A DNA stretch of 27,778 nt from a virus: positions 1 through 27,778 of the IMG/VR virus record IMGVR_UViG_3300046011_007030; one strand, given 5' to 3'. This document shows positions 2,130 to 24,617 of this stretch, one piece after another. Made by a program: the position numbers and the translations under genes. Below the pieces are notes generated by a model. It worked only from the letters and a program-made list of their open reading frames with translations. It was not told the origin of the DNA and did not search any database. How positions within the stretch are numbered: the first letter of the stretch is position 1; every line of letters begins with the position of its first letter.

Positions 2130-3188
2130 CTAAGTTATTAATATATTACTATAATCGTTATAGAGTTCTACAAGGGACAGTTTTACAGTACTAAAGTTAA
2201 CATCTTCTAACTCAAAAGTTAATACGTCTGTATCCAAACGGCAGTAATATAAAAAGTTAACCTCTCTACAGGTCTCCGTACTATTAAAAGGAGGAATTAC
2301 ATCATATAAATAGAGCTTCTCACAAGGTTCTCCCTGACCATTTACGTATTCCTCAACAGATAATACTTGAGAGGCAAAATTTGCATTAGGGATATATAAC
2401 ATTTTATTAACAAAACCATAAGTCATAGATGTATATGCTTTTTTAATAAGTATAAAATTATCACCAGAGGAGGGCTGAGCGTCAAAAGAAAAAGCGTTAT
2501 TCCTAGCGTTAAACAGAAATGTCTTATATTTTCCTGATACAGAATCAAACCAATTCTTTAATAAAACCCTTTCAGCAACTGTGTTCTGTGCTAATGAGAC
2601 ACTAAAGTATTTGTAGGGGTCTGCATCTGATACAAACTTCTGTTTCTGATATATCTCACCTAACACTTGATAATTAGCTTTTAAATTTTCTCCCACTGAT
2701 TCATAAACAACAAAAGGAAATAAGGTATTTTCAAACATTGGTCTATTTTCTGCTGGAATATCGGAGTAAGTTTCTTGACCTGGTGCTTTCCATGTAACAG
2801 CAAAAACACCAGTACTTGTTGTCCCTATAAACCTACACTTAATAGAAGCAATACCATTAGGAAGTGTTGCTGACCCTTCTCCCCCTGCCAGTAAGGAAGT
2901 AGCTACAACTACATCATTAACTAGTATTTCTGCGGTTCCTCCAGTAGTGGTTATCTTAAAGTAATAAACACCATAAGAAGGTAGATATAAGTCCCCTGTC
3001 ATTATTAATAAAGAAGAACTGGGGGTGGTATAATATGTAGCTATAGTCTCAGAAATATTATCCTCATAATGTGTACGAATTAGCTTAGAATTTATTGCGT
3101 AAGTTAATTCCCTTGTATCAAATAATAAAGAGGTTGTGGGGACTGAAAACCCAGTAGCATCATAGTGCTTTACTAAAAATCTTCTCAT
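2130..3188 (-). CDS. Distal tail structural protein with PA14-like domain
   Basis: A 352-residue protein. Residues about 60-147 look like a PA14-type beta-barrel: YYFKITTTGGTAEILVNDVV, then a glycine-rich turn, a rise in beta strands, and VFAVTWKAPGQETYSDIPAE. This is the order 'G.Y.F.i...g.a.l.vng... ...l..G...i...y.....g...l.W..PG....ip'. PA14 folds often bind carbohydrate, which would suit a tail-tip protein, but this is inferred from pattern alone. Residues about 175-345 contain a segment around 200-245 (LLKNWFDSVSGKYKTFLFNA) resembling the 'G...sFwlP' core of distal-tail proteins found next to DUF2163 hubs. Its start overlaps the previous gene's stop (TAATG). Position between tape-measure-side genes and the hub supports a distal-tail (Dit-like) or adaptor role. 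Confidence 0.6.
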   Translation of the reverse strand: MRRFLVKHYDATGFSVPTTSLLFDTRELTYAINSKLIRTHYEDNISETIATYYTTPSSSLLIMTGDLYLPSYGVYYFKITTTGGTAEILVNDVVVATSLLAGGEGSATLPNGIASIKCRFIGTTSTGVFAVTWKAPGQETYSDIPAENRPMFENTLFPFVVYESVGENLKANYQVLGEIYQKQKFVSDADPYKYFSVSLAQNTVAERVLLKNWFDSVSGKYKTFLFNARNNAFSFDAQPSSGDNFILIKKAYTSMTYGFVNKMLYIPNANFASQVLSVEEYVNGQGEPCEKLYLYDVIPPFNSTETCREVNFLYYCRLDTDVLTFELEDVNFSTVKLSLVELYNDYSNILIT

Positions 3189-7422: not shown

Positions 7423-8763
7423 TTACTTGACTGCATTATTAATCACTTGTCTACCAGCTCTCGAAGTTAAGTAAGCTTCTATGACTGAAGGGTCAAGGGA
7501 GTTTACAATGACAACTTCAGAGTTACTGGCAGGAGCTTGTTGAGTAGCTTGAGGAGCATTTCCTGCTCCTTTGATTGCTGCCATATCTTTTCTGCTGAGA
7601 ACGTATTCTCCAGTTTGAAGAGTTGCAGGAACCTCATCACTTCTTAATCCTGCTCTATTATCGTTCGATACATAACCCCCTGTGTGGAAAGTCTGCGCTT
7701 TAATCTGCGCAACTTGTTGCATACCTGCTGCTACAGCTCCTGCAGCTGCGACAGGAGCTAAGTAAGGGCCTACATAAGGTATAGAAGCCGTAGCTGCATA
7801 AACTGATTGAGCAGCCTCATACGTTTTAACAATCGTAGTAGCCACAGAAAGAGCTTGCATAGCTTTAAATGCACCTTTACTCTTATTACCACTAAGTAGA
7901 TAGTATACATTAGCAATGTTAGAGAGTGCATCAAAGGTTTGTTGAGCTTGGGCTAAATGAGCACCCATCTTAGCAGCCTCTAAAGCTTTCATACGTTGGT
8001 TTTGGAGAGTTTGCATCTCGAATTCAGTATCATGGAATTGTTGAAGAAGTGCTTTTCTCTGCTCCATTGCGGCTATTTCATCTTCACTACCTGGAGTCAT
8101 TCCACTCATATCTTGGGCATTAGTGCCTAACTCTTGTCCTAGATTATCTTTTTGAGCTGTTAAAGTTGCTTGCTGAGTATCAAATATTTTATTAATATTC
8201 TGTTCATTTTGTTTCATACCTAGTCCAGAGAAATTTCCCATTCCCATACTAGTAAAGTTTGTGCCTGTTATAGCATCTTGGCCATCTTCTCTTTGGGTTT
8301 TTAGTTTGTCACCAATCATAACCCTAGCTTGAGGCTCTGTAAATCCAGCTTGTAAGAGTCTTTCAATTTCTCGCAGTACTTCCAGGTCTTTCTCATACCC
8401 AGAAGTTCTGTTTACGAAGTTTTCATACTCAGCGGCAATAGTTCTTTGGGCATCTAATTGTCTAGCAGTTGCTATAGTTTCTGCTGTTTTGTCTTTGATA
8501 ATATCTTTAGTAAGCCCCTGTTGTAATTTATACTCATCTGTTATATCTTGGGTAAGTTTTTTCTCTTTCTCTTTAATAGCATCCCCACGTTTTTTATTAC
8601 CACTATCATATTTGTTAAAATTATCTATCTCTTTAACAAGTTCTAATTCCTGCTCTTTTAATACTTTTAGTCTTTGTGCAGACTCTGCTTGTAAATTAGT
8701 ATCTGATAAAGTTTTACTTTGTGCAATTTGTAAATCTGTAACTACAAAGGCTGAGTTAATTGC
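7423..8763 (-). CDS. Tape measure protein, C-terminal part in the shifted frame
   Basis: This frame is open from just after a stop at 8764-8766 down to 7423, about 446 codons. It has no ATG, GTG or TTG start near its beginning; the first Met codon is at 8319, inside an uninterrupted coiled-coil-like sequence. Residues upstream of that Met (KEQELELVKEIDNFNKYDSG, EKEKKLTQDITDEYKLQQGL) continue the helical style of the tape measure. The C-terminus holds a hydrophobic stretch (SIPYVGPYLAPVAAAGAVAA) and then FHTGGYVSNDNRAGLRSDEV and LQTGEYVLSRKDM, the standard end of tape-measure proteins ('GG.v.g.g..D.VpA.L..GE.Vl'). So this is the C-terminal third of the tape measure, reached by a -1 frame change, not an independent gene. 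A start at 8319 would drop about 148 conserved-looking codons. Confidence 0.85.
   Translation of the reverse strand, partial: AINSAFVVTDLQIAQSKTLSDTNLQAESAQRLKVLKEQELELVKEIDNFNKYDSGNKKRGDAIKEKEKKLTQDITDEYKLQQGLTKDIIKDKTAETIATARQLDAQRTIAAEYENFVNRTSGYEKDLEVLREIERLLQAGFTEPQARVMIGDKLKTQREDGQDAITGTNFTSMGMGNFSGLGMKQNEQNINKIFDTQQATLTAQKDNLGQELGTNAQDMSGMTPGSEDEIAAMEQRKALLQQFHDTEFEMQTLQNQRMKALEAAKMGAHLAQAQQTFDALSNIANVYYLLSGNKSKGAFKAMQALSVATTIVKTYEAAQSVYAATASIPYVGPYLAPVAAAGAVAAGMQQVAQIKAQTFHTGGYVSNDNRAGLRSDEVPATLQTGEYVLSRKDMAAIKGAGNAPQATQQAPASNSEVVIVNSLDPSVIEAYLTSRAGRQVINNAVK
8742..8763 (-). other. -1 frame junction in the tape measure gene
   Basis: The two tape-measure frames are both open only between 8763 and 8742. 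The first frame reads CAG CCT TTG TAG; moving back one base after CCT gives CCT TTT GTA GTT, which continues smoothly as Q-P-F-V-V-T-D. No classical X-XXY-YYZ slippery heptamer is present. Adding one T to the TTT run (8748-8746) would also restore one frame. The site may be a homopolymer error in the sequence, a real mutation, or an atypical recoding site. Confidence 0.75.
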
Positions 8764-11700
8764 TCAGCCATAAGGCGAGTAACTTCTCTGACTTGTACAT
8801 TATCCTCTTTTAACAATTTAGTCATTACGTGCTTATCTAGTAATCCTAAAGTATCTAACCTAGCTTTTGCTTCTGTAAGTGTTAATATTTGTTGGTGAGA
8901 CTCTACATATTTTTTAGAAGCACTAACTACTGCATCTAAGGCCTTCTGTTTCTCTAGGTCTGGGTTAGCGGTTTTAGAGTAGTTCTCAGCCTCAAGGGTT
9001 ACTTTTTCTACAGCTTTACCAGCAGCTATTGGGTCACTACCAGCTTTTGTTATATCATTCATAAACTGTCTGGCCAATGCTTTACCAGCCTCTGGGACAG
9101 CATCTATAGTATTCTGTAACATTGCTATCTCTGTTTTAGATAACTTACTAATAGTATTAGCTAACTCAGCAGATAGCTCTTTAGTCTTTCCAGTAACATT
9201 AACATTACTATTATATAAACTTTCATATTTTGAAGCCGCAGAGGTAAGTAAATTTATATATTCAGGGGAAACTAATGTCTGGACTTGGGTTGCACCACTT
9301 TTAACACTAATAGCCCCTTTATCTTGTACTAAGTTGGGGGCATTAAATGCTGGACTTGCAGTACTTGTAGTTGCTGCTGGGGAAAACTTTTGTGTAGGGG
9401 AGTAGGCTGGGCCACTCAGAGTTGTCTTCATATTTGCTACGGTGCCTTGGTAGAATCTCATACCCTTGCCTGAAGCATCTACGGCTATATGCATAACAGC
9501 CTTTCCTGTAGCCTCCATAACCTCTAAGATAACCTGACCAACTCCTTTAAAAATATCTGGGTTCTGTTCCATATACTTTTGCATACGTTTACCCTCATCA
9601 ACGTTTGCGAGTTGTATATCTACTGCTCCAGATACTCCATGCTGCCCCTTATCACCAGCTCTCCCTGAACTTGTAATTTGGTATTGTTTATCAAACCCCT
9701 TTTCTAATCTTGATATTTGAGTAGCAAGAAACTGAGTATTATTAATCATTTCTTGAGTATACTTTAAGTCAGCCCCAGCTCTAGCATAATTAGCTTCAGT
9801 TACTTTTAACATTTCTTTTTGATTTGCTGCAGTATCATCTTTTAGGCTATAAATTCCTTTTGCGTTGGGGATTACTGCTGGGCCTGTAGCGTTAGGGTTT
9901 TGGGCCATAAGCTTAAATCGTTCAGCCAACACATCAGTTTGTGTCGTCATATTCTTAAGAGATAAAGCCCACGTATCCATATTCTTTTGATTGGCTACGG
10001 TACTAAAGTCTGCTGACTGAATAGATTTTTTGGCTAATTCTAGTTGACTAATAAAATCAGAAATTTCTGTGATTCTTTTAATATCTTTTTCATTAGTTGC
10101 TTTTAAAATCCCTGTCAATGAAGCAATATTAGCATCTAATGCAGAAGTCATAGCACTTTGTGCTTTTCCTCCAGATACTGCTAGGAGTTCTGGGTTCTTT
10201 TGATTAGCGTACGCAGTCATCATAATCGTTGCATCTTTTACAGATGACTTAGAATCTAATATAGCACTATTGATATTTAAAGCTTTAGTTAGATTATCTA
10301 CTTCTAACTGGGCAGCTGTAATCTTTAACTCAATCTTATAAGCTTCTGTTACACTTGCATTTTGTTTTAGTTTAATCAGCTCCCTAATTTTATCTTGGGT
10401 TTTAGTAATCTTATCATCTAGAGTAACCACTGCATCTTTAGACTCTCCAAAAGCAGCCGCCATACCTATTGCTACAGACGTTATACCTACAACTATAGCA
10501 GCTATAGGGTGTCTAGATATTGCAGTCATTAATCCCTGTAAAACAGCCATTGCTGCTGAGGCCCCAGTAGCTCCTGCTGTAATTGTTCCTAACGCAGCTG
10601 TAATTCTTATAGCAGCCCCCACAATAGCAGCCCCAGCTAATGCCCCTAAAACAACCTGCATAGCAATTCTAAATTTATCCCAGTTCTCCCTAATTGCTGT
10701 TATAGTATAATTAAACTTATCCAAAGCTCCAATTGCAAACTCGGTAGCTGCCTGTGCAAACGGTAATAAAGCCCCAACAGTATTTTTAAAACTTAGGGCT
10801 AATGAATTACCCAGTTTTTCCCACGTTATAGCATAACTTTCGGTAATAAAGTTAGCCTTATCAATTTCCCCATTTACCCCCGCATTAAGCTTTCTTAAAT
10901 GAAGAAAAAAGTTATCAGCATTATTTCGTAGCAATGTAATTGATTGTAGAGCAAGAATATCCATGCCTCTGGTAATTCTTCCAAAGTCATTATCAGAGAG
11001 TCCCTTAAGTTTAGCAACAAACTCAGCCATTGCTTTGTTTGATTCTTCAGTGCCCATCTTCATACGAGCAATCATTATCTCTTGGTCAGTACCAATAGCT
11101 TTAAAGAAACTTGTCACTTCTCCTGAAGTCTCAGATAATACGCTTGAGAATCTACGAATTTGTGTACCAATAGTAGAAGCGTTTACCCCTGCATTTGAAA
11201 AAGATATAGCCATAGCTGATACTGCGTTTGCAGTCATTCCAGAAGAACGTGCAGCGGCCAAAGCGTAGTTGGAGAATGTACCAATATCTTGAGTAGACAT
11301 ACGAGACTGGTTTGCCATGTACGCTAAAGTATTTGAAAGGTCTTCAACGCTTGGAGTAGTGCCAGTTATAGCGTCTTTAACATCCCCAAAAACTTCTTTA
11401 TAGGTAATCAAAGCACTTGCAGATGTTGCAAAGCTATCTCCAGTAAGTCTTGCCATTTTTATAATGTTTTCTGTCGCAGTAGCAACTTCTGCCTTATCAA
11501 AACCAGCACGGCCTAAAGTTAGTGCAGCCTCATTAATATCTTTTAACGTACCACCAAATTTTACGCTCAATCCTGCTAGTCTTTTTTCCAAACGTCCAGC
11601 AGACTCAGACGACATATCTAAAACTGCAGATAAAGTATGAATTGCTTGGTCATATTCTAGAGTATACGCAACCCCTGCAGACATTGCTTGAGTAACTTGG

Positions 11701-13562
11701 GTAATACCCATATATAGAGAAGAATAAGCTAATACTCTCCCTCCAATATTTTGAATCCATTTTGAAAAGCTCGTTTCACTTAATTGTGCATTAAGGTGTC
11801 TTGTTGCTTCAGTAGAAGATACGAGTGATTTATTTAAATTTTGTAAACTAGCACTTCCTTCTTTAACAGTAGTAGATAAATTAGTACTTGTAGCGAATGA
11901 GGCATCAAACTTAGCCTTTTCCTCTCTAACCTTTGTTAACTCTCTACCTAGCTTATCTATCTGCTCTTGTGCGGCCAAAAGGCTCTTATCTGTGGCCCAG
12001 TTAGTCTTAGCATTTTTTAAACGCTCTAGTGCCCCTATTTGCTCAGTATACTTTCTAATAGTTTGGTCGAACCCAACATCAACGGCTACTTTATTATCAA
12101 GGCTTTTCTTGAATGAGTTAAACTTATCCTTTAGGATGGTTATACTACTTCCAGTAATGACTAACTCATTTCTCAAAGACTCCAAATTAGCAAGTCCTAA
12201 TGTCTTATCTGCTGTGTTTAAATTTGCATTGGCCTCAACATTATTCTCATATTCATTAATTAGTTTTAAAAGACCTAACTTTTTGTTTAAGTCGGTAAGC
12301 TCTGCACTAGCAGATGCAGGAGACCCAGCACTTCCCTTAGTTTTATTATTTAGATTTACACTGATTGCATCAATTTGAGCCTTAATAGCATTAATTGTGC
12401 CAGAGGAGGTATTTCTCAAAGATGCACCAATTCTATCAACTTCTAATAATAAACTCTTGGCAGCCTCTCTAGCATTAACAAAGTTCTTTGATAAGTTGAC
12501 ATCCTCTTTAGTTTCTATTGCCTTATCAACAAGACCTGCAGTATTACTAGTCCCTGCTGTAATTTTACTAACATAAGTGGCAGTAGCTTTTGGAGTAACA
12601 GCTGTTGGGGTAAGAGTTAATAATGCTTTTCTTTTTGCAATCTCATCATCAAGCAAAGCTACAACTTTCTCGGCCGCTTTTAAATCCTCTTTAGATGCGC
12701 TATTCTTTTGAGCCGCAGCACTAGCAACTAGCAAATTTCTCTTAGCCTCTAGTAGAGTTATATCACTTTGTAATAAACTTTTTGCTTCTTTTTGTTTGGT
12801 TAACAGCTCAGATTGTGTTACGGAGAGGGATTTATATAAGTCATCAGACTTTTTTAAGAGTGCGTTGATTTGTTGTTGGTTCAAATCTCCACTTGCTATC
12901 TTATCTTTTGAAGTGGTTAGAGTACTTAATACTTTATTTTTATCTGGGCTTTTTATATCCAAGCTAGATAGTTTTTTAGTTGCTTCTTCCACCTTAATAA
13001 TATTAGCATAATATTTTTCCATATCACGACTAAGTTTATTTAACTGAGTTCCTTTCCCAGTGGTAGTTAAAATAGTATTAACGGATGCTAATTTATCTTT
13101 GAGAGAACTTAAAATTGTATCAGATACTCCCAAACTTTTCATGGTTGTTAGGAGGTTTTGAATATTTACATTTGCGCCTTTAGCAGTTCCACTTAATTGG
13201 TCATTAAACCCTTTAAAAGTACCAGTAACTGCTGCTAATTTTGTATTTAGGTTTGCTAAAGTTTCTGTAAATGCTTTCCAGGTTGGATTATTCTTATCAT
13301 CAGCTGCAGCAGAGCGTTTAAACTTATCGAAATCATCAGTAGTAGCCTTAACTTCCTCACTAAGGCTTTGTACTTCTTTAGAAAGGGCTTTATACCCCTT
13401 TTGTGCTTTCACTAAAGCTACATCATTACCTTTAAAGACTACAGAGGCGGCTTGCTCTAATTCCCCTACACGTTTAAACGTATTTACTAAGTCCCCATCA
13501 ATCTTACTGAGACCCTTTGATATAAATTCTACCCCAAAACTAAGTGTTTTATCATTAGCCAT
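8742..13562 (-). CDS. Tail tape measure protein, N-terminal part, with M15-like peptidase domain
   Basis: A 1606-codon frame; joined to the downstream frame it gives about 2046 residues, suggesting a tail near 300 nm by the usual ~0.15 nm per residue. Residues 1-590 are long helical/coiled-coil sequence. About 597-830 matches the tape-measure core (PhageMin_Tail-like: LEYDQAIHTLSAVLDMSSES, FGGTLKDINEAALTLGRAGF). About 955-1040 contains several hydrophobic segments (QVVLGALAGAAIVGAAIRI, HPIAAIVVGITSVAIGMAAA), as in proteins that cross the host membrane at DNA entry. About 1285-1375 looks like an M15-type peptidase: ITSSGR, H1308-x6-D1315 in QHGVSGAVDI, QVILE, and H1358 in VMHIAV. The start follows AAGGG. 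It sets tail length and probably helps DNA pass the cell wall. Frame ends at TAG 8742. Confidence 0.9.
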   Translation of the reverse strand: MANDKTLSFGVEFISKGLSKIDGDLVNTFKRVGELEQAASVVFKGNDVALVKAQKGYKALSKEVQSLSEEVKATTDDFDKFKRSAAADDKNNPTWKAFTETLANLNTKLAAVTGTFKGFNDQLSGTAKGANVNIQNLLTTMKSLGVSDTILSSLKDKLASVNTILTTTGKGTQLNKLSRDMEKYYANIIKVEEATKKLSSLDIKSPDKNKVLSTLTTSKDKIASGDLNQQQINALLKKSDDLYKSLSVTQSELLTKQKEAKSLLQSDITLLEAKRNLLVASAAAQKNSASKEDLKAAEKVVALLDDEIAKRKALLTLTPTAVTPKATATYVSKITAGTSNTAGLVDKAIETKEDVNLSKNFVNAREAAKSLLLEVDRIGASLRNTSSGTINAIKAQIDAISVNLNNKTKGSAGSPASASAELTDLNKKLGLLKLINEYENNVEANANLNTADKTLGLANLESLRNELVITGSSITILKDKFNSFKKSLDNKVAVDVGFDQTIRKYTEQIGALERLKNAKTNWATDKSLLAAQEQIDKLGRELTKVREEKAKFDASFATSTNLSTTVKEGSASLQNLNKSLVSSTEATRHLNAQLSETSFSKWIQNIGGRVLAYSSLYMGITQVTQAMSAGVAYTLEYDQAIHTLSAVLDMSSESAGRLEKRLAGLSVKFGGTLKDINEAALTLGRAGFDKAEVATATENIIKMARLTGDSFATSASALITYKEVFGDVKDAITGTTPSVEDLSNTLAYMANQSRMSTQDIGTFSNYALAAARSSGMTANAVSAMAISFSNAGVNASTIGTQIRRFSSVLSETSGEVTSFFKAIGTDQEIMIARMKMGTEESNKAMAEFVAKLKGLSDNDFGRITRGMDILALQSITLLRNNADNFFLHLRKLNAGVNGEIDKANFITESYAITWEKLGNSLALSFKNTVGALLPFAQAATEFAIGALDKFNYTITAIRENWDKFRIAMQVVLGALAGAAIVGAAIRITAALGTITAGATGASAAMAVLQGLMTAISRHPIAAIVVGITSVAIGMAAAFGESKDAVVTLDDKITKTQDKIRELIKLKQNASVTEAYKIELKITAAQLEVDNLTKALNINSAILDSKSSVKDATIMMTAYANQKNPELLAVSGGKAQSAMTSALDANIASLTGILKATNEKDIKRITEISDFISQLELAKKSIQSADFSTVANQKNMDTWALSLKNMTTQTDVLAERFKLMAQNPNATGPAVIPNAKGIYSLKDDTAANQKEMLKVTEANYARAGADLKYTQEMINNTQFLATQISRLEKGFDKQYQITSSGRAGDKGQHGVSGAVDIQLANVDEGKRMQKYMEQNPDIFKGVGQVILEVMEATGKAVMHIAVDASGKGMRFYQGTVANMKTTLSGPAYSPTQKFSPAATTSTASPAFNAPNLVQDKGAISVKSGATQVQTLVSPEYINLLTSAASKYESLYNSNVNVTGKTKELSAELANTISKLSKTEIAMLQNTIDAVPEAGKALARQFMNDITKAGSDPIAAGKAVEKVTLEAENYSKTANPDLEKQKALDAVVSASKKYVESHQQILTLTEAKARLDTLGLLDKHVMTKLLKEDNVQVREVTRLMAEQLTQPL

Positions 13563-13592: not shown

Positions 13593-13602
13593 ATAATCGT
13601 TA
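13593..13602 (-). promoter_or_regulatory. TAACGATTAT motif before the tape measure gene
   Basis: On the minus strand the 44-base gap before the tape measure reads GTTAACGATTATATAGTAAT. Its core TAACGATTAT matches the ACGATWAT core seen in other gaps of this arm. A -35 box is not recognisable. The same ten bases occur at 2151-2160, at the end of the PA14 gene, 33 bases upstream of the hub start; there it is coding (NDYS), so that copy is less certain. Likely a promoter element by comparison with the other copies. Confidence 0.4.
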
Positions 13603-13606
13603 ACGC

Positions 13607-14284
13607 CTACCTCTGTTTTGATTTAGCTAGTTCCGCTTCCATTTGCAGTCTCTTTCTATTTTCTATACTGTTATTAATTAACATAGAGAAAATACAGAAG
13701 GTGTGTGTCTGGTCAAACCAACCTCCATCGTCTGGCAAAAATCCAGCCTTAAATATATTGTAAGCCTCAATTCCTATAGATAGTATAGATAAATCCATAT
13801 CAAAAACTGGGCAGTGGGTATATAAGTTATTATTAATAACTAACTTAAAGTCTTTACTCTTTTCTTGCTCCCCCAAAAACCCACAATTTCTACTCCCTTG
13901 TAATCTTTTCTGTTTACATACTTCACACTTCCAATTATCAGAGGATAGTACATCTGAAAAATAAAGGTCAGCCGTTGTTGACATGCGCTCATATTGCTCT
14001 GAACTAATACTAGAGGTCTTAATAATATGGTCTGCAATTTCTTTCATTATAGTAATAGGCAATGAACTGAACTCTAATTTGTTATTTTCTACAGTTTCTA
14101 TTGACTTAATGGCTAACTCGCAGACCCTGTAGATATACTCATTTGGTTTATTTTCATTATAAATGGTATTTACAGTATTAATATCTCGTAAGGAGAGCGT
14201 AGAAAATACTACAGATACCTCAGGAAAGGAGGCATCTAAGTATACGGAAGGGGTGTAGTAGTGGGTTTGTTTATGAAGCTGCAT
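13607..14284 (-). CDS. Second tail assembly chaperone, zinc-finger-like
   Basis: A 225-residue protein between the first chaperone and the tape measure, the place of gpGT-type chaperones. It carries C120-x2-C123 (KCEVCKQ), C134 (RNCGFLG) and C158 (HCPVFD), a spacing suited to one zinc site. The C-terminal region (EAYNIFKAGFLPDDGGWFDQ then a helix ending in a Lys/Arg-rich tail) resembles the second, Cys-bearing chaperone-like protein of other long-tailed phages. ATG 14284 lies 14 bases inside the end of the preceding gene, in another frame, without a clear ribosome-binding site, and the codon just before it in this frame is a stop (TAG). Translation is therefore either coupled by re-initiation or made by a frameshift from the first chaperone. 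Such proteins guide tube assembly around the tape measure and are usually absent from the finished virion. Confidence 0.6.
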   Translation of the reverse strand: MQLHKQTHYYTPSVYLDASFPEVSVVFSTLSLRDINTVNTIYNENKPNEYIYRVCELAIKSIETVENNKLEFSSLPITIMKEIADHIIKTSSISSEQYERMSTTADLYFSDVLSSDNWKCEVCKQKRLQGSRNCGFLGEQEKSKDFKLVINNNLYTHCPVFDMDLSILSIGIEAYNIFKAGFLPDDGGWFDQTHTFCIFSMLINNSIENRKRLQMEAELAKSKQR

Positions 14285-14714
14285 CTACAGTAGGTGTTAC
14301 TTCTGGAGTAATAAATTTACCCAAAAATAAGTCTGTATGCTCGGGACTTCGTGTAATATTTGCAATCAAGTTAGCTAACTCTGCAATAATATCTAATGGG
14401 AGCAGTTCAATAGAGCTATCCTCTACAAACCCACTGGCATCTTTTTTCAGCTTAACAGTGTTAGAGTTTTCGTCAGTTACGTTAGTCCATCCTACAAGTC
14501 CACGCTTAATAATATTCCAGTTAAAAGTACCAGAAGCAAAACTAATAGTAGCATCATCTTGATTAACTTTAGTTAGGCCATCTTCAAGCTTAGCAAATGT
14601 TCGCTTGTCAATACGTTTTACCTCAACAGTAAATGGGTCAGTATCCTCTCTACAAGAAACAGGGATATAACTAAATGTTTGTGTTGTTTTATCAGAATTT
14701 GTGACTAGTGCCAT
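14271..14714 (-). CDS. Tail assembly chaperone (gpG-like)
   Basis: A 147-residue acidic protein directly after the tail tube gene and before the Cys-rich chaperone, the standard position of gpG. Features seen: KRIDKRTFAKLEDGL (about 33-47), RGLVGWTNVTDENSNTV (71-87), and LPLDIIAELANLIANITRSP near 103-122. The 'G W...d..G' followed by 'lp..ii.ELa..I...s' pattern is common in phage tail chaperones of this kind. ACGGAGAAAATA before ATG 14714 is a good ribosome-binding site. Its 14-base overlap with the next gene may allow a fusion product by a +1 or -2 shift, but no recognised slippery sequence is visible there. Confidence 0.7.
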   Translation of the reverse strand: MALVTNSDKTTQTFSYIPVSCREDTDPFTVEVKRIDKRTFAKLEDGLTKVNQDDATISFASGTFNWNIIKRGLVGWTNVTDENSNTVKLKKDASGFVEDSSIELLPLDIIAELANLIANITRSPEHTDLFLGKFITPEVTPTVDAAS

Positions 14715-14735
14715 TATTTTCTCCGTAATTTAATC

Positions 14736-14759
14736 AAAAGTAGAGGGCATACAGCCCTC
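14736..14759 (-). terminator. Hairpin terminator/attenuator after the tail tube gene
   Basis: On the minus strand, right after the tail tube stop, GAGGGC-TGTAT-GCCCTC forms a 6-base-pair GC-rich stem with a 5-base loop, followed by TACTTTTGATT. The U-tract is interrupted, so termination may be partial. That would lower transcription from the abundant tube gene into the chaperone genes. Confidence 0.6.
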
Positions 14760-14766
14760 AGTTGGT

Positions 14767-15795
14767 TTACATATGAGCTACGTAAACAGCCTCACCTAGA
14801 ACCGCATCTTCATACGCTTCAAATTCAATCTTGTTTTCAAGAATACCATCAGCATTTTCAATAGAAACCGCTGTATAACGAGTACGTGGGAACCAGATAG
14901 CAAACTTATGAGTACCAGAAGTCATCTCAAGGTAAACAGCAGCATCTGTGTTATTCTTAAACTTATTAAGCTCAGAATAGTCAGAGAAAACGATAGACAA
15001 AGAACCCTTAATCATTTTCTTAGTAATAGCTTTTGCAGTAATACCAGCAGAAGTAATAGCTTCACGGTCTACAACAGTATTTTCAATTGTGAAAGAGAGG
15101 TCTTTTGCTTCATAATCAGTTCCACCGATTGTAAATGTAGCATTTTTACCAACATAAGGGTTCTCAGTAAGAGAAGTACCTGAAAGGATTGTCTCACCAG
15201 CAGCAGTTGAATAACCTGCAGCACCTACGTCAAAAGTAATAGAAGCAACATCAGCAACAGGAAAGTCGAACTTAACACTTGAAGGTACAACACCTGTATA
15301 AGTAATAGTTTGACTATCACCTGTATCACAACCAAGGAATTGCTTGATAGCCAAAGAAGGCTGACCTCCACAAGGTTTAGCAAGTTTATAAAGAGTTGCT
15401 GTACCAGTCTGTGCAGCACCTGCCTCAAAAATCTGCTTAGCAGGGGTGGTACCAGCATCAGAGAACCCAATAAATGCTCCAGAAGCAAGACCAGGAGCTT
15501 CTACAACACCAAGAGCAACTTCCAAAAGCGCAGAACCATTAAGGTCTTTACTAGCACCTCCAAGAGGAATAAGCTCAACACCACAGCTTCCGCTTCCGAA
15601 GATTTTTCCAGCCATTTTAGGTTGGGATACGAAAGAGTTCTTTACAGCTTTACGCTCAATAGAGTCTCCTTCAGGTTTCATTGAGGTATCAGAAGTTACT
15701 TCAACCACGTTAGCCGTAAGGAATGTGCCACCAGTATTAAATGTTGATTCTTTAATGATTGCATAAACCGCACTATTAGAACGATAAAGAGCCAT
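14767..15795 (-). CDS. Major tail tube protein
   Basis: A 342-residue protein with the character of long tail tube proteins: an N-terminal MALYRSNSAVYAIIKESTFN, and a C-terminal block KKMIKGSLSIVFSDYSELNK, TDAAVYLEMTSG, FAIWFPRTRYTAVSIENADG and KIEFEAYED. The 'G.l...f......l..f.....v.l.......f.i.lP...y......' order is typical of this group. It polymerises as stacked rings to form the tube. It lies between the tail terminator and chaperone genes, the expected place. Expression appears individually controlled: a promoter-like element lies upstream (15828-15857) and a hairpin downstream (14736-14759), which fits a highly abundant virion protein. AAAGGA before ATG 15795 supports the start. The six neighbouring short antisense frames are shadows. 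Confidence 0.85.
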   Translation of the reverse strand: MALYRSNSAVYAIIKESTFNTGGTFLTANVVEVTSDTSMKPEGDSIERKAVKNSFVSQPKMAGKIFGSGSCGVELIPLGGASKDLNGSALLEVALGVVEAPGLASGAFIGFSDAGTTPAKQIFEAGAAQTGTATLYKLAKPCGGQPSLAIKQFLGCDTGDSQTITYTGVVPSSVKFDFPVADVASITFDVGAAGYSTAAGETILSGTSLTENPYVGKNATFTIGGTDYEAKDLSFTIENTVVDREAITSAGITAKAITKKMIKGSLSIVFSDYSELNKFKNNTDAAVYLEMTSGTHKFAIWFPRTRYTAVSIENADGILENKIEFEAYEDAVLGEAVYVAHM

Positions 15796-15827
15796 GTAAT
15801 GTCCTTTGAGATTAGTATGTCATTCTT

Positions 15828-15857
15828 ATTATCGTAGAGTATATAAAATAGTGTTAA
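15828..15857 (-). promoter_or_regulatory. Promoter-like element before the tail tube gene
   Basis: Minus strand: TTAACA (15857-15852), 18-base spacer, GATAAT (15833-15828), which matches 10 of 12 sigma70 consensus positions (TTGACA/TATAAT). The -10 is part of the CTACGATAAT version of the motif shared by this arm. The -35 overlaps the stop codon of the tail terminator gene. A transcript would start about 25 bases before the AAAGGA ribosome site. Confidence 0.55.
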
Positions 15858-16264
15858 ACAAGCCGTTTTATATATCTAATTTGTAGGAGCATTTGAGCAA
15901 TTGAGTAAGGCATAAGAAGACCACCATCTCTCTTAAAGGAAGTTATCATTCCCTCAATACAGCTACACTTAATATAAGTGTTAGCTTCTATAACTCCCTG
16001 AGCTACTTCAACTAAGTCTGATAGGTTATCATCAGTATCAGACCCACGTTGCTTGTTATAAATATAAATAGGAATATTTGCAGAAATAAAGGCCTTACTA
16101 TTGGTAAGATTCTCTCTATTTGTCGTATCACTTTCATAAACAACAGCTATAGCAGGAAACTCTTTAATATCTGTCCAAACTGGGATACTATTTTTAAATA
16201 CCTTTTTGAACTTTCTAGTTTTCTCTAAGTCAGCGCAAATTGCATCTATAACTTCTATTCTCAT
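15854..16264 (-). CDS. Tail terminator / tail completion protein
   Basis: A 136-residue protein upstream of the tail tube gene and after the HK97-gp10-like gene, the conserved slot of the tail terminator (lambda gpU, SPP1 gp17 type). It begins with a helix (EVIDAICADLEKTRKFKKVF), then alternating strands including FPAIAVVYESDT, ANIPIYIYNKQRG, a helix NLSDLVEVAQGVIEA and a final strand AQMLLQIRYIKR. This alpha-beta order with 'P.i.v......e' and 'l.v.vy' fits the family. It caps the tube and joins it to the head. Start ATG overlaps the stop of the previous gene (ATGA). Confidence 0.7.
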   Translation of the reverse strand: MRIEVIDAICADLEKTRKFKKVFKNSIPVWTDIKEFPAIAVVYESDTTNRENLTNSKAFISANIPIYIYNKQRGSDTDDNLSDLVEVAQGVIEANTYIKCSCIEGMITSFKRDGGLLMPYSIAQMLLQIRYIKRLV

Positions 16265-16809
16265 AATTGTCCCCTAGCTAAAAATAAACTATCAAATATA
16301 TCATGCATAGATGGTAGTTGCTTACCACTATCATCGAAGAATCTTTCAATGTCTGTACGTTTTAGCATAGCTTTATCCATCCAGTTTTCCCAACTAGGGC
16401 GAGTACCATCTTTTCTTCTTGGTGCTCCATCATTAGTAGCCTCAGCATACGCCAACTTTTTACCATCAATAATACCAACACCAGCAACAATGCTAATAAT
16501 ACGTTTTGTCTCTGAGGTATTAAGTTTAGATATAACATCTGCTCTAATACTATCCCTTAAGTGAGGGGTAGTATCACCTTTAGCTCTTTTATTAAAGTGA
16601 GGAGCATCAGAGTCATCTGGACGTTGTTTATGTTGTTTTACAATGTTTGCAGCTGCATGAACTGAGAGTTTCTTATATAGCTCTTTTTTCCACTTAGTTA
16701 CTTCTTTATTAGCAACAATTCCAAAGCTTTTTGCAACAGCTCCAGTCATCTTACTTAGGCTAAGATTAAAGTTCTTAGCTAACTTATAAGCTGCCCCAGG
16801 GGTAAACAT
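16261..16809 (-). CDS. HK97 gp10-like neck/minor tail protein
   Basis: A 182-residue basic protein. The central segment AGVGIIDGKKLAYAEATNDG (about 109-128), followed by RPSWENWMDKAM, resembles the 'i......YA...e.Gt....rPf...a' core of the HK97-gp10 family. The N-terminal half is helical (KKELYKKLSVHAAANIVKQH) with a polar loop carrying RPDDSDAPHF and a LRDSI strand. Members sit between the head-tail connector and the tail terminator and help join head and tail. It is flanked by exactly those genes here: a 2-base gap on one side and an ATGA overlap on the other. Function by family and position; the sequence match is moderate. Confidence 0.65.
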   Translation of the reverse strand: MFTPGAAYKLAKNFNLSLSKMTGAVAKSFGIVANKEVTKWKKELYKKLSVHAAANIVKQHKQRPDDSDAPHFNKRAKGDTTPHLRDSIRADVISKLNTSETKRIISIVAGVGIIDGKKLAYAEATNDGAPRRKDGTRPSWENWMDKAMLKRTDIERFFDDSGKQLPSMHDIFDSLFLARGQL

Positions 16810-16811
16810 AA

Positions 16812-17357
16812 TTAAAGCTTAAAGATTTTAAATGCTTGAAGAGCTGTATCAGCCAAGTAAGAGACTCTATCGAGGGGTTTAATTGCCTGTTTAGTATCAG
16901 AAGTAATCATGGATACATTTTCTAAGTTCTTAGTAATATCTGTATACATTTTCTTACCAACAGAGAACACAGCATTTAATAAGCTAGGAGGAATATCTGT
17001 ATGAGTTGCAAAACCTACTGAATATACAACTACGATATTACTTGTCCCAAGAATAAAAGTATTATCAGGAATATAAATACTATTTCTAGAGAATATAGCA
17101 GTTGATGTATCTAAGGGTTCATCAGACATAGTGATGGAAGTAATGCTTGTAATGTTACCCTTATTAGTGTAAAGCTTCTTAGAATTTCTACCATCATGAT
17201 ACTCTGTAAGAGTGCGAGGGTTTATAGAAATATCATAAGTATTGTAAATGAAATCTTCAACTTGGGTAAGTACTTGAGAGGCGAATGTAACAACTTCTAC
17301 ATCTTCCCCAGATACATCTATATACTTAACGAATAGTGCAATTAACTCTGGGGCCAT
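16812..17357 (-). CDS. Head-tail connector (gp6-like adaptor)
   Basis: A 181-residue protein. N-terminal helices (FVKYIDVSGED, FASQVLTQVEDFIYNTYDIS) are followed by TEYHDGRNSKKLYTNKGNIT and SITSITM. Then come a strand NIVVVYSVGF, IPPSLLNAVFSVGKKMY and C-terminal helices. The order 'a...ie.y......r..tE.ydG......l....PI.sI.si' then 'Y..G......ip..l..Av....' is typical of HK97 gp6/SPP1 gp15-type adaptors that dock under the portal. It lies downstream of capsid genes and before the neck protein. AAGGA before ATG 17357 supports the start. Confidence 0.7.
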   Translation of the reverse strand: MAPELIALFVKYIDVSGEDVEVVTFASQVLTQVEDFIYNTYDISINPRTLTEYHDGRNSKKLYTNKGNITSITSITMSDEPLDTSTAIFSRNSIYIPDNTFILGTSNIVVVYSVGFATHTDIPPSLLNAVFSVGKKMYTDITKNLENVSMITSDTKQAIKPLDRVSYLADTALQAFKIFKL

Positions 17358-17369
17358 GTATAATCCTTA

Positions 17370-17567
17370 TTACTTTTTAGCAGGTTTTTCTTCTACTTTG
17401 TCTTCCACTTTTTCTTTAACAGCTTTTGTAGCCTTAACTTCAGAAAAAACTTCTGGGAACATATCTAAAAGATACTTCGCATCTTCATTAGGAACTTCGT
17501 ACTCACGTCCAGTAACGAAATCAATACCAACAGAGGTAATACCTAGACCAGTAAACAATAAATTCAT
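17370..17567 (-). CDS. Small head-region protein, unknown function
   Basis: A 65-residue protein between the capsid gene and the connector gene. Residues 1-45 contain VTGREYEVPNEDAKYLLDMF, reminiscent of small phage proteins whose pattern is 'G....v....A..L....p..f'. Residues 46-65 are a Lys/Glu/Val-rich tail (KEKVEDKVEEKPAKK) likely to be unfolded. AAGGA lies six bases before the ATG. Proteins of this size at this place are common in HK97-type head modules, but I know no assigned function; a head decoration or assembly factor is possible. It follows the capsid terminator, so its expression may rely on read-through or its own promoter. Confidence 0.5.
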   Translation of the reverse strand: MNLLFTGLGITSVGIDFVTGREYEVPNEDAKYLLDMFPEVFSEVKATKAVKEKVEDKVEEKPAKK

Positions 17568-17620
17568 TTCTATTCCTTAAATCTTAACTCAGATATGGGT
17601 CACATACCTCGGCTAAAACT

Positions 17621-17646
17621 AAAAGAAAGAGTGGGAAATCCCACTC
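17621..17646 (-). terminator. Rho-independent terminator after the capsid gene
   Basis: On the minus strand, six bases after the capsid stop codon, GAGTGGG-ATTT-CCCACTC forms a perfect 7-base-pair stem with a 4-base loop, directly followed by TTTCTTTT. This is a standard intrinsic terminator. It would insulate the very abundant capsid message from the connector and tail genes. Confidence 0.85.
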
Positions 17647-17651
17647 AATTC

Positions 17652-18851
17652 TTAGAGATTGACGATTGCAACTACAGGAGTAGCAACGATTGAAAGCTTT
17701 TTGAAGTCAACATCACGGTATCCAACATAAAGAGTTGAACTAGAAACAGCTTTACGCTCTTCCTCAAGACCGATTGCTCCACGGTCAGCAATACCGAAGA
17801 AACGCTTATTAACAACAAGTACTGCAGTTTTAACTCCAGGAGTAACAGTATCAACAACACCAAGTGCAGTCAAGTTGTCAGGGATATAAGCAGAAGCAAC
17901 GATTGGCATACCATAAAGTTTGCCGATTTCTCCAGTAAGGATAGTTGCAGCTTGACCATATTTATCAACAGTCATAACCTCAGGGATAGCCAACATATCA
18001 TAAGCAACATTTACAGGAGCGATGATAGCAAGGTCAGTCAAGTTCAAGCCATAAACACCAAGTTTCTTACGAGCAGCAAGTACTTTAGTAGCAGTAATAG
18101 CAGTAGCACCACCATCAATAGTCATACCAGCAAGTACAGCGATTTTCAACAAACCATTGAACGCTTTACGAACGTCATTAGCATCAGCGATAGTAGTATC
18201 ACCAGCAATAATACCTTTTTCAGAAGCACGAGCCAATGAATATACCAACTCTTGTTTTACCAAATCCATAACAGCAACTACTGCTTCTTGGTCAGCTTGG
18301 TCAGTAACACTTACAAGTGTTTTGATACGGCTAGTTTCAAAAGTAATTTTACCAGCAGCGATTGTTGACTCGATAGCGTCTGCACCAGGAGCAATCAAAT
18401 ACGCAAGAGCATCAGTAGAACGACCTGGGATACTGAATTGGTTACGATTAGCAGGCATCTGCAACTTAGTAAACAATGGCTCAATCATCAACTCAGCTTC
18501 AAGCTTAGTCAACATTTGACCACTAAATTCTTCAGCCAACCAACTAGAAATATCAGCAGGTTTAATTGCTTTCTCAACAAGACCAGCCATATCTTTATAC
18601 TCTGCAAAAGACTCTACAGAACGTCCAGTAAGGATAGACTTAAGGTGAAGATTAGCACCAACAGTTTTAGCGTTAGCAATTTCTTTATCAGAAACTACAG
18701 TGTCTTCAAATGAAGTTTTACGTTCAGCCATTACACCAAGTTCTTTGTGTAATTCTTCAAGTTGTTTTTCAGAAGCAGATTTTGATTCTGCCATTTCAAG
18801 TTTAAGAGTGTCTAACTCTTTCGCCATCTTTTCAATTGCTTCGATTGCCAT
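17652..18851 (-). CDS. Major capsid protein, HK97 fold
   Basis: A 399-residue protein directly after the prohead protease gene. Residues 1-70 form a charged coiled coil (EAIEKMAKELDTLKLEMAES), the delta/scaffold region that the protease normally removes. The rest follows the HK97-type pattern: AEEFSGQMLTKLEAELMIEP, an N-arm/E-loop area QFSIPGRSTDALAYLIAPGA, a long spine helix near QADQEAVVAVMDLVKQELVY, and a C-terminal 'iadRgaigle..r...s.....  yR.vdfkkLsivatp' block. It builds the icosahedral shell. AAGGAG eight bases before ATG is among the strongest ribosome sites in the window, and a clean terminator follows, as expected for the most abundant virion protein. Codon use appears cleaner here than in neighbours (impression only). 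Confidence 0.9.
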   Translation of the reverse strand: MAIEAIEKMAKELDTLKLEMAESKSASEKQLEELHKELGVMAERKTSFEDTVVSDKEIANAKTVGANLHLKSILTGRSVESFAEYKDMAGLVEKAIKPADISSWLAEEFSGQMLTKLEAELMIEPLFTKLQMPANRNQFSIPGRSTDALAYLIAPGADAIESTIAAGKITFETSRIKTLVSVTDQADQEAVVAVMDLVKQELVYSLARASEKGIIAGDTTIADANDVRKAFNGLLKIAVLAGMTIDGGATAITATKVLAARKKLGVYGLNLTDLAIIAPVNVAYDMLAIPEVMTVDKYGQAATILTGEIGKLYGMPIVASAYIPDNLTALGVVDTVTPGVKTAVLVVNKRFFGIADRGAIGLEEERKAVSSSTLYVGYRDVDFKKLSIVATPVVAIVNL

Positions 18852-18863
18852 TAGGTAATCTCC

Positions 18864-20060
18864 TTAATATTTTAAATGTGAATTTACTGTTGCATCAATT
18901 GCTTGACGTAGCTCAAGTAAATTATTAATATAATCGTCTGTAGCTTCCGAACTCTCTACATAAGATAAAACCTGCTCAAAAGAAAGAACATTAGGTAGTG
19001 TAACTTCACCCTCAGCAGTTTGGAAAGAATCTCCCTCAGCATCTTGGATAATAATTTCATTACCATCTTCATCAGTTGGCTTTACATCAAGAGTATTATC
19101 GTCTGTTTCTTTTTCGACTGTCTCTAAATCAGCAATAAAGTTAATAATATCTTCTGGAACTTCATCAAGTACTTTAGTTTCTACCATTTCTTCATAGTGT
19201 TTTAGTAGGTGTTTTGCAGCTGAAATCTTAACTTCTTTGCTATAAACTAGTTCATCTTGTACGCTTTTAAGGGCAGCAAATGCAGATTGAACTCCCCCTT
19301 TATTTACAGAAAGTTTACCCTCATCAAATTCATGGTGAGGGAATTTCCAAGAGCTTTTCTTTTCAAGGTCTCCTACAACTAAGTAAGCTTCCTCAATTAC
19401 CTCTTTAGTAGCATCAGTACTAATAGTGTCAATAAGGATAGATTTATCTACCTCATTCCAACGTCTGTCAGAGATTTCTTTATTCTTAATTTTTTGAGCA
19501 CAAGCAATAGTATGAGAACTGGTAGCCTTACTTGCTAGTAAACAATTACCACTAGCACAAGGAGACTGAGTAAGAGTAGTAAAAATAGAATCTTGGTTAT
19601 CAGGAACGGAGACAATAGAAACCTCCAAAAGCTCAACAGCTTTAAAGTAATAAATGTCTGCTACTGCATCATACATACTATCCGTTGCTCTAAACCCGAT
19701 TGAGAAGGTTTTTAGGATACCTTTTTCTACAGCGTAATATACCTTTTCATTCAGAACTTGATGTACTTCAGCAGTAATTTCTAATCCGTTTAAGGTTACA
19801 CTAATATCAACAATTTTACCAACTGGGTGTTGTTTATCATGATAAGAGAGGAGAATTGGGTTTTTCTTGAAGTTTTCTAAGTCGTACCCACTAGGAAGAA
19901 CTGAGTCTCCACTACGGTCTACTACAACTTGACCATTATCATCAAGGAATCTATTAGCAAATCCTTTGATATAAATAATGTTAGCTTCACTAGAACTTTC
20001 GGAAGTACCTAGCTCCTTAACAATCTCCAAGTCTTTCATTACTAAGGTTAGGTTATCCAT
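18864..20060 (-). CDS. Prohead maturation protease (HK97-type, U35)
   Basis: A 398-residue protein. The protease part shows IYIKGFANRF (28-37), PILLSYHDKQHPVGK with the likely catalytic His74 (68-82), LKTFSIGFRA with Ser120 (116-125), and AVELLEVSIVSVPDNQ (141-156), the standard HK97 protease blocks. Residues about 236-292 form a second unit: SSWKFPHHEFDEGKLSVNKG, then AFAALKSV and AAKHLLKHYEEM. I recall this 'yPHH...G.l....v..a...L........a..HL..HY' block fused to other phage proteases; its role is not known to me. The C-terminal 100 residues are acidic, like a scaffold region. It processes the capsid precursor inside the prohead. AAAAGGG before ATG supports the start. Confidence 0.85.
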   Translation of the reverse strand: MDNLTLVMKDLEIVKELGTSESSSEANIIYIKGFANRFLDDNGQVVVDRSGDSVLPSGYDLENFKKNPILLSYHDKQHPVGKIVDISVTLNGLEITAEVHQVLNEKVYYAVEKGILKTFSIGFRATDSMYDAVADIYYFKAVELLEVSIVSVPDNQDSIFTTLTQSPCASGNCLLASKATSSHTIACAQKIKNKEISDRRWNEVDKSILIDTISTDATKEVIEEAYLVVGDLEKKSSWKFPHHEFDEGKLSVNKGGVQSAFAALKSVQDELVYSKEVKISAAKHLLKHYEEMVETKVLDEVPEDIINFIADLETVEKETDDNTLDVKPTDEDGNEIIIQDAEGDSFQTAEGEVTLPNVLSFEQVLSYVESSEATDDYINNLLELRQAIDATVNSHLKY

Positions 20061-20099
20061 TAATAGTCCCTTTTAAACTTTCTTTTAATATCTAAGAAG

Positions 20100-20109
20100 A
20101 TTATCGTTA
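20100..20109 (-). promoter_or_regulatory. TAACGATAAT motif before the protease gene
   Basis: Minus strand TTAACGATAATC lies in the 71-base gap between the portal stop and protease start. It is identical over TAACGATAAT to the copy before the portal gene. It also forms the right arm of an inverted repeat GATTAT-TAACG-ATAATC (20099-20115). The -35 position (CGTACA with an 18-base spacer) matches poorly, so activity would depend on the core motif. Probable late-promoter element. Confidence 0.45.
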
Positions 20110-20131
20110 ATAATCATTATTAGTGTACGTA

Positions 20132-21484
20132 TTATGGGGCCGTATTGGCTACAGCACCGTCAGAGGCCCCTCCGTTGGGGTCTGTACTTCCTGCTCCACC
20201 AGTAGAAGGGGCTGTCCCAACACCAGCAACTGCAGCACCATCTTGTACATAAGTTGCCCCAGTTCCAAATAAGTAAGCCGCAAGGATATTCTTATCTGCA
20301 TTTTCAACTGTTACTTTTGGTAACCCAATCATATTACGTCCCTCATTAAGAGTTGCAAGACCTGTAGAATATAAAGTTTTTGCAGCATCAGCACGTACAT
20401 CTAGGCTCGTTTCAAGTTCTACAACTCTGTCTAAATCAAACGTGAAAGTTAGTTTAGGGTTCTTATACTTCCCACGCAAGAAAAGGGTAATAGAATCCTC
20501 TAATTTATATAAGTAAGGGCGTACAGCAGTATTAAATACTGCCTTCATCAAGTCTTGAGGTTTTGATGTGGAGGTATTTTCTCCACCGAGGGCTAGTGCA
20601 TTAATTTTAAATACACGAAGAACTCTTTTATCACTAATATGTAGAGAATCAATTAGTTTAGAGTCGTTAGGGGAGACCTGAATTGGTTTATATGTAATTC
20701 CTCCAGGAAGGACAGCAGTACCACCTCTATTAACCCCACCTTGTCCATACATTACAGCGAACTGGTCTTGGAGTGCACTTACCTGTTCTGGACTAAGAGC
20801 ATACTCAGACTCTAATAGCCCTGTAAGTAGGCTTGAGTTTTCATAAAAACTCTTTAAGTCCTCTAAAGCATAAGTTTCTAGTAATAGAGTATCAAGGAGA
20901 GGGCGTATAGCTGGAACTCCATAATACATATTGTTAAGAGTAGGGTTTCTTACAATACACACCTCATCAGCAGTGTATGTAATTTTATCTTTCCAAATAA
21001 CACCCTTAATATAATTGCTAGAGTCTGGTACGATTTTAACAGAAGAAGGGGAGCCTAAAAACCAAGACTCAAGATTACCTTTATTAGTCTCATGTGTCAT
21101 AAAAGAGGTACCAGATAGCAAGATAGCCTGAATATTTAGTTCAATCATTTCTCCCCAAGTAAAGAAAGGGTTTGGGGATTGAATCCAAGCATTTAGTTTA
21201 TCTTTCTTAGGTAGTGGTAAAATCTCTCCATTGTCTCCCAGTGTTCCAATTCTAGGAACTGCTTGGCTGGCCGCTTTGGTAATATAATCAACACAACTAA
21301 AAATTAACTCGCTAGTGTGGAAACTATTTTCCTCAGATACTTTTGCTAAGCTACCCTGACCCCCCTCAAAGTTTTTAGCAGCTTCAGCATTATTTCTACT
21401 AGCTTTAGTGTGAACAAATAGAGAACTGCCCCCACTATTACTAGTCTTATCTTCTTTATTTGAGAAAAAATCAAAAATTCCCAC
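20132..21484 (-). CDS. Portal protein, HK97 type
   Basis: A 450-residue protein at the head of the minus-strand operon, followed by protease and capsid genes, the classic order. Motifs seen: FSCVDYITKAASQAVP (about 62-77), LNAWIQSPNPFFTWGEMIEL (97-116) with the family's 'L...PN...t...f', SWFLGSPSSVKIVPD, ADEVCIVRNPTLNNMYYGVP, and ISDKRVLRVFKINALALGGE (about 282-301), the 'i....gvP..llg' segment. The C-terminal 50 residues are Gly/Ala/Pro/Thr-rich and probably disordered. It forms the dodecameric ring for DNA entry and exit. The start is GTG at 21484, with AGGGGG 6 bases upstream. The terminase genes that normally sit beside it are on the opposite strand, across the divergent region. Confidence 0.9.
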   Translation of the reverse strand: MGIFDFFSNKEDKTSNSGGSSLFVHTKASRNNAEAAKNFEGGQGSLAKVSEENSFHTSELIFSCVDYITKAASQAVPRIGTLGDNGEILPLPKKDKLNAWIQSPNPFFTWGEMIELNIQAILLSGTSFMTHETNKGNLESWFLGSPSSVKIVPDSSNYIKGVIWKDKITYTADEVCIVRNPTLNNMYYGVPAIRPLLDTLLLETYALEDLKSFYENSSLLTGLLESEYALSPEQVSALQDQFAVMYGQGGVNRGGTAVLPGGITYKPIQVSPNDSKLIDSLHISDKRVLRVFKINALALGGENTSTSKPQDLMKAVFNTAVRPYLYKLEDSITLFLRGKYKNPKLTFTFDLDRVVELETSLDVRADAAKTLYSTGLATLNEGRNMIGLPKVTVENADKNILAAYLFGTGATYVQDGAAVAGVGTAPSTGGAGSTDPNGGASDGAVANTAP

Positions 21485-21516
21485 TATATCCCCCTAGAGT
21501 ATATATCAATTAACTT

Positions 21517-21537
21517 ATTATCGTTAAAGCGAGAAAA
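21517..21537 (-). promoter_or_regulatory. Late-type promoter motif before the portal gene
   Basis: Minus strand TTTTCTC-GCTT-TAACGATAAT, ending about 33 bases before the portal GTG. The same bipartite pattern with the same 4-base gap occurs on the plus strand at 21680-21700. GATAAT can serve as a -10 box; no good -35 is visible. A second -10-like TATACT (21502-21497) lies closer to the gene. Taken as the start of the whole head-tail transcript. Confidence 0.55.
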
Positions 21538-21633
21538 TAAGTAATTTTGGAGTATTCTTAAAGAAAACTGAATGCCTATTTTAGGGAGTTTGAAAGGCGT
21601 GTCCCAAGACCTATTAATGTATTCCCCTTTAAG

Positions 21634-21690
21634 AGCTTTTTCTAGAAATCTGATATTCTTTTTCTAGAAACCTTACAGCTTTTCTCTAGG
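21634..21690 (+). repeat. Three iterated CTTTTTCTAGAAA-like elements
   Basis: CTTTTTCTAGAAA occurs exactly twice, at 21636-21648 and 21658-21670, and a degenerate third copy (CTTTTCTCTAGG) lies at 21679-21690. Starts are 22 and 21 bases apart, two helical turns, so bound proteins would face the same side. Each exact copy contains the 10-base palindrome TTTCTAGAAA. The third copy overlaps the plus-strand promoter motif. This may be an operator, or a packaging (pac/cos) recognition site given the terminase genes next to it. The rest of the gap (about 21541-21633) shows nothing I can assign. Confidence 0.7.
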
Positions 21691-21700
21691 TGACGATAAT
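21672..21700 (+). promoter_or_regulatory. Late-type promoter before the terminase operon
   Basis: CTTACA (21672-21677), 17-base spacer, GATAAT (21695-21700): 9 of 12 matches to sigma70 consensus. The span includes TTTTCTC-TAGG-TGACGATAAT, matching the portal-side copy on the other strand. A start about 7 bases downstream would leave an 18-base leader with AGGAG before ATG 21725. Confidence 0.6.
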
Positions 21701-24588: not shown

Positions 24589-24617
24589 TTGACAAATGTT
24601 TTTTTATGTGATATACT
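24589..24617 (+). promoter_or_regulatory. Consensus sigma70 promoter of the RNR operon
   Basis: TTGACA (24589-24594), 17-base spacer, TATACT (24612-24617) preceded by TG-A, an extended -10. Eleven of twelve core positions match the consensus. Transcription would start near 24624, and AAGGAG (24638-24643) lies seven bases before ATG 24651. Typical of early phage promoters read by unmodified host polymerase. It lacks the ACGATWAT core of the virion arm. Confidence 0.85.

Follow-up and report, generated by a model that had tools for sequence, protein, structure and literature searches.

The sigma factor gp36 of phage phiEco32 recognizes middle and late promoters composed of one short element, tAATGTAtA, with transcription starting 6-8 bp downstream (PMC8948821). 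In phage T4, gp55 is similar to sigma factors in domain 2 only and acts together with gp33 and the sliding clamp gp45 (PMC2988020). The late promoters read by gp47 of phage 7-11 are bipartite, GTAAtg-(16)-aCTA (PMC8948821), and the FliA promoter has the form TAAAGTTT-n11-GCCGATAA (PMC2859248). Phage T5 relies on host sigma-70 for its late genes, and the mechanism of its switch is unknown (PMC7472727).

We analyzed a 27,778-base fragment of a virus record (the window), whose head, tail and packaging genes are of siphophage type and distantly resemble those of T5 phages. The word ACGATWAT recurs in this DNA; judging from its sequence context, it is very likely a late promoter for virion and packaging genes, likely recognized by a phage sigma factor. 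A limited literature search found no earlier report of a promoter class of this type. The working principle would be like that of phiEco32 gp36 or, more broadly, T4 gp55, i.e., a phage sigma factor reading a short late promoter. As in phiEco32, a phage sigma, the host core polymerase and one short conserved element would serve the late genes; here, however, the motif is another one, region 2 of the sigma is FliA-like, and the system is known from sequence alone. The candidate promoter consists of one element and a weak upstream C, with the predicted start placed by a purine at +7. A tblastn search with the phage sigma described below (E 0.01) found no match among 50,697 phage records, and remote homology to gp36 is possible. 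In phage 7-11, too, a phage sigma takes the place of sigma-70 at late genes, but the promoter is bipartite. T5 (Demerecviridae) has a distantly similar terminase and capsid but transcribes its late genes through host sigma-70. Phage 7-11 promoters predicted from sequence only (PMC4331800) differed from those later determined experimentally (PMC8948821), a case that calls for caution with such predictions here.

ACGATWAT in the virion and packaging arm

The two strands of the window hold 12 copies of ACGATWAT, where dinucleotide shuffles give 1.04 on average and 4 at most, which rules out chance or dinucleotide bias as their source. Six copies lie 24-39 nt ahead of virion or packaging start codons (tail assembly, tape-measure, minor tail, protease, portal and the first gene of the packaging arm), one of them, at 2151, overlapping the end of the gene before it. 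The remaining copies, also six, are within coding sequence. The copies assigned to virion or packaging genes are given here with the neighboring hairpins and a host-type promoter:

2151..2158 (-), predicted late promoter of a tail assembly gene, ACGATTAT at the end of gene 2130-3188; start codon 2117, 33 nt
7657..7664 (-), candidate promoter, ACGATAAT in the tape-measure C-terminus, 270 nt ahead of gene 5839-7386
13593..13600 (-), predicted late promoter of the tape-measure gene, ACGATTAT; start codon 13562, 30 nt
14743..14759 (-), terminator-like hairpin after the minor tail gene
15828..15835 (-), predicted late promoter of the minor tail gene, ACGATAAT; start codon 15795, 32 nt; motif there in 13/13 tabulated genomes
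17629..17646 (-), terminator-like hairpin after the capsid gene
18930..18937 (-), embedded copy near the protease gene end, ACGATTAT, 78 nt ahead of the capsid start; shared with relative G001 only
19095..19102 (-), candidate capsid promoter, ACGATAAT in the protease C-terminal linker, 243 nt ahead of the major capsid start
20100..20107 (-), predicted late promoter of the protease gene, ACGATAAT; start codon 20060, 39 nt
21517..21524 (-), predicted late promoter of the portal gene, ACGATAAT; start codon 21484, 32 nt; motif at the portal gene in every clade
21693..21700 (+), predicted divergent late promoter of the packaging arm, ACGATAAT; 24 nt to an 84-aa gene at 21725, followed by the small and large terminase genes
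24589..24617 (+), host sigma-70-type promoter, TTGACA-17-TATACT, ahead of gene 24651, with ribonucleotide reductase (RNR) genes downstream

All motif coordinates in an earlier note on this DNA were correct on re-checking, but its list missed the copies at 19095, 7657, 4954, 10222 and 25442. That note had also read TR as the beginning of the motif. We dropped this prefix because it is not conserved, as the copies at 15828 (CTACGATAAT) and 18930 (AGACGATTAT) show; at -1, the logo has only a weak A/T preference. The note's claim that the motif marks every gap of more than 40 nt in the arm that lacks a terminator hairpin holds, as the two motif-free gaps (14714-14767 and 17567-17652) each contain a terminator-like hairpin. 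We found no support for a virion-gene role of the copies at 4954, 10222 and 25442. The latter (AACGATAAT, 25442-25449) sits inside a small gene ahead of nrdB, 233 nt upstream of the nrdB start; the same word occurs 243 nt upstream of that start in relative G002 (G002:13873-13880), and G001 lacks it. This copy may serve RNR as a late promoter or may be coincidental.

The tape-measure gene of the window is split by a frame change at 8730-8784. ORFs 8742-13562 and 7423-8319 belong to a single gene, because residues 1-1605 of the G001 protein match frame -3 and residues 1647-2077 match frame -2; the G001 gene is intact. The frame change is either a sequencing error or real.

A terminase search retrieved seven homologous contigs, including G001, which is circular (82,148 bases, with a 116-base end repeat). 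ACGATWAT precedes orthologous genes in these contigs despite diverged flanks, and among 39 sites less than 70% alike, conservation is essentially confined to the eight motif letters. The packaging-arm copy, for instance, is kept in G001, G002 and G006, at 24, 27 and 30 nt, respectively. In an unbiased scan of upstream regions for every 8-mer with one degenerate position, ACGATWAT ranked first in its clade, with 43 of 427 regions against 1.52 expected. The late-promoter reading survived a genome-wide frequency test as well: in the complete G001 genome, the motif lies 12-65 nt ahead of 7/25 virion-arm genes and of 0/83 others. Pooling G001, G002 and G007 gave 19/74 virion-arm versus 9/257 other genes (P = 8e-8), with genes called by a simple script whose individual starts may be off, and with the G001 portal start corrected through homology with the window. 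The nine non-virion or unassigned genes, found in G002 and G007, count against this reading.

The earlier note had proposed two promoter classes, with a different promoter on the RNR side, and both points were borne out. TTGACA-17-TATACT at 24589-24617 precedes gene 24651, and its G001 counterpart lies 25 nt ahead of gene 70724. Host-type TTGACA-17-TATAAT promoters lie mostly outside the late arm and ACGATWAT within it; from the functions of the genes, the two classes would be early and late, respectively.

Promoter anatomy and embedded copies

A purine is found 7 nt after the motif in 36/42 ACGATWAT sites, and likewise in 27/27 and 17/18 sites of the related motifs CYGATATA and CGATATA described below (background about 0.52; P = 4e-6, 1e-8 and 1e-4, respectively; five CYGATATA rows with negative distances, which are wrap-around artefacts, were left out of the counts). 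A transcription start (+1) would lie there if the motif ended at -7. As a purine at this place is also frequent at copies away from starts (30/39, 8/10 and 7/10, including some embedded candidate promoters), we regard it as supporting rather than decisive. No conserved -35 element was found upstream of the motif sites, just a weak C near -32. This C, 19 nt ahead of the core C, is present in 19/42 ACGATWAT, 15/18 CGATATA and 3/27 CYGATATA sites. Region 4 is undetected in the sigma factors of the CYGATATA clade, while those of G001 and G007 have a weak one; since G002 region 4 is undetected too, we treat a link between the upstream C and region 4 as suggestive only.

The sites might instead be read by the host sigma-70 polymerase as a variant -10 box, GATAAT, turned on late by a phage activator, as in T5. 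GATAAT is close to TATAAT, the 15828 site has TTAACA 18 nt upstream of it, the weak upstream C matches the C of TTGACA, and T5 late genes use sigma-70 (PMC7472727). Nevertheless, used sites always have C and G before ATWAT, and a G at -12 is poor for sigma-70. A general -35 is absent, these genomes also have genuine TTGACA-17-TATAAT promoters, most of them at other places, and the motif varies by phage clade, all of which makes sigma-70 recognition unlikely.

In the ACGATWAT clade, one embedded copy, in the variable C-terminus of the protease, lies 229-263 nt ahead of the capsid start in the window, G001, G002, G006, G007 and G008; the second capsid-side copy, at 78 nt, occurs in the window and G001. 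Another, in the tape-measure C-terminus, lies 234-270 nt ahead of the next gene. The residues encoded by the protease copy vary (DDN, NDN, HDN) while the DNA word is kept. Those of the tape-measure copy are NDN or DDN, and both these residues and the copy itself are confined to the ACGATWAT clade; relatives G009-G012 have their own motif 28-44 nt ahead of the 5839-7386 ortholog. Given the residues, the codons that the motif needs would occur together with a probability of only about 0.13-0.19 at each site; we give no combined P value because related genomes are not independent. From these patterns, the 19095 and 7657 copies look like promoters embedded in coding sequence.

The word could otherwise act in RNA or translation, or be a by-product of coding for an N-D-N type tripeptide, as xAC-GAT-AAT can be read; many copies are near start codons and several are in coding sequence. 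The strong enrichment in upstream regions, the purine at a fixed +7 and the embedded copies 229-270 nt from the next start, which require unfavoured codons, render this very unlikely.

A further virion-arm gene, L016:3946-4347 (-), has orthologs in G002, G006, G007 and G008 that carry ACGATAAT 143-146 nt from their end, preceding a small virion-arm gene. In G001, the copy is intergenic, 109 nt ahead of that gene.

Clade-specific motifs and a phage sigma factor

More distant phages were retrieved by a capsid search with a conserved-core alignment; a capsid query against bacterial genomes found no relatives and so pointed to no host. No excess of ACGATWAT was found in G010-G012, which have 127-base end repeats. 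CYGATATA ranks first in their upstream regions, occurring in 31 of them against an expected 0.33, and is enriched at virion genes (P = 4e-9). The same scan yielded CGATATA in G009, CGATATAA-like words in G015 and AAWACGATTTT in G013 and G014. CYGATATA, CGATATA and AAWACGATTTT have a common CGAT/YGAT core, and CYGATATA, CGATATA or ACGATTTT precedes the orthologous portal, capsid, minor tail and tape-measure genes of the distant clades, with gene-by-gene exceptions. CGATATA-type words also topped the 8-mer scan in four further contigs (L102, L103, L105 and L106), as they did in L116, which is part of G015 and thus not independent. Neither a CGAT-type motif nor sigma region 2 was found in L112 and L113 (G021), distant capsid relatives with possibly incomplete records of 20 and 67.6 kb, and these phages may have another late switch. 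A missing sigma in fragments carries little weight because CGATATA fragments also lack a sigma match.

A sigma-like protein, which the earlier note had suggested looking for, is present in complete relatives. Six large relatives from two clades (G001, G002, G007, G010, G011 and G012) encode a sigma-70-family protein of 187-200 aa (187-190 aa in the first three), whose gene adjoins an SbcC-like gene (sbcC) in 6/6 cases. Aligned with the G001 protein, those of G010-G012 show 28-32% identity. The window fragment has no sigma gene, and its own phage presumably carries one elsewhere. Searches for more carriers returned G001 only with a single-sequence query and known carriers only with alignment queries. 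Sigma and motif are known together in just two clades, too few for co-variation statistics. As to G002, identical promoter contexts occur 86,625 bases apart (1,932 and 88,557; 2,824 and 89,449), L019 and L023 being its ends; this suggests end repeats of about 3 kb, so that the genome may be complete at about 86.6 kb.

Sigma70 region 2 scored 43.6 bits in G001 against a curated cut-off of 24, which was also passed in the other five genomes. Region 4 reached 27.6 bits in G007 (cut-off 24.1) and 23.3 in G001, just below, and was not detected in G002 and G010-G012. The likeness to T4 gp55 is that of a small diverged sigma-70-family protein with similarity centered on domain 2 and a predicted role at late genes. 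The domain-2-only pattern, however, fits the G002 and G010-G012 proteins and not that of G007, as G001 and G007 keep a weak region 4. Among specific families, FliA/WhiG matches region 2 best, and FliA is the best PDB sequence match. Full membership in the FliA/WhiG sigma-28 family was rejected (53.3 bits versus a family cut-off of 189.6). The structure model is of modest confidence, with an overall pLDDT of 69.9 and a disordered linker (residues 79-113), and we therefore used it at the domain level only; Foldseek placed sigma factors among its best matches, including the sigma-28 polymerase complex.

The region 2 match and the CGATAA core of the -10 element are what this system shares with FliA/sigma-28; the TAAAGTTT element and the GC extension are absent, and the family score is far under the cut-off. 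That host FliA itself reads the sites, as their CGATAA core in common with GCCGATAA might suggest, is highly improbable: the sites have neither a TAAAGTTT box 11 nt upstream nor a GC extension, the motif varies by phage clade, and the phages encode their own sigma. A literature search on sigma-28 residue contacts gave no relevant match.

In all six sigma-bearing genomes, near-consensus TTGACA-17-TATAAT or TACAAT is located 57-77 nt ahead of one and the same gene, which precedes sigma by about four genes (in G012, this stretch spans the contig ends). This fits an early, host-driven operon that would produce the late sigma. A 470-aa gene without assigned function (L015:7158-8570, -) follows the sigma gene in 6/6 genomes and overlaps its end; in G002, ACGATTAT lies 29 nt ahead of the 470-aa gene, within the last part of sigma. 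The 470-aa product is a possible partner of sigma.

A proposed two-step late switch

We propose that ACGATWAT is a single-element, -10-type late promoter used by large siphophages of an uncultivated lineage. The early genes, among them the operon with the small phage sigma, would first be transcribed by the host RNA polymerase under the host sigma-70. The phage factor, with its sigma-28/FliA-like region 2, would then steer the host core polymerase to ACGATWAT, in which GATWAT would be the -10 hexamer (-12 to -7) with C at -13 and A at -14 in front of it, and RNA would start at the purine 7 nt past the motif. The portal, protease, capsid, tail and packaging genes would thereby be switched on. 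We put the probability of this model as a whole at about 0.87.

How the switch arose is more tentative. At somewhat less than even odds, a sigma-28-class factor was captured by this phage lineage and cut to region 2 with a decaying region 4. A two-part flagellar-type promoter would have shrunk to a 7-8 bp single element drifting by clade (CGATATA, ACGATWAT, CYGATATA, ACGATTTT) in step with sigma, some copies being kept in coding sequence as promoters.

For an uncultivated phage lineage, this amounts to a specific gene switch in two steps, with a candidate for each half: a sigma gene and the promoters that it would read. The analysis also points to promoters retained within coding sequence, in the protease linker and at the tape-measure end. 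Because the relatives use related but differing -10 elements, this set of phages constitutes a natural series for asking which sigma residues pick which -10 letters, and the clade versions of the motif offer the same for the evolution of such switches.
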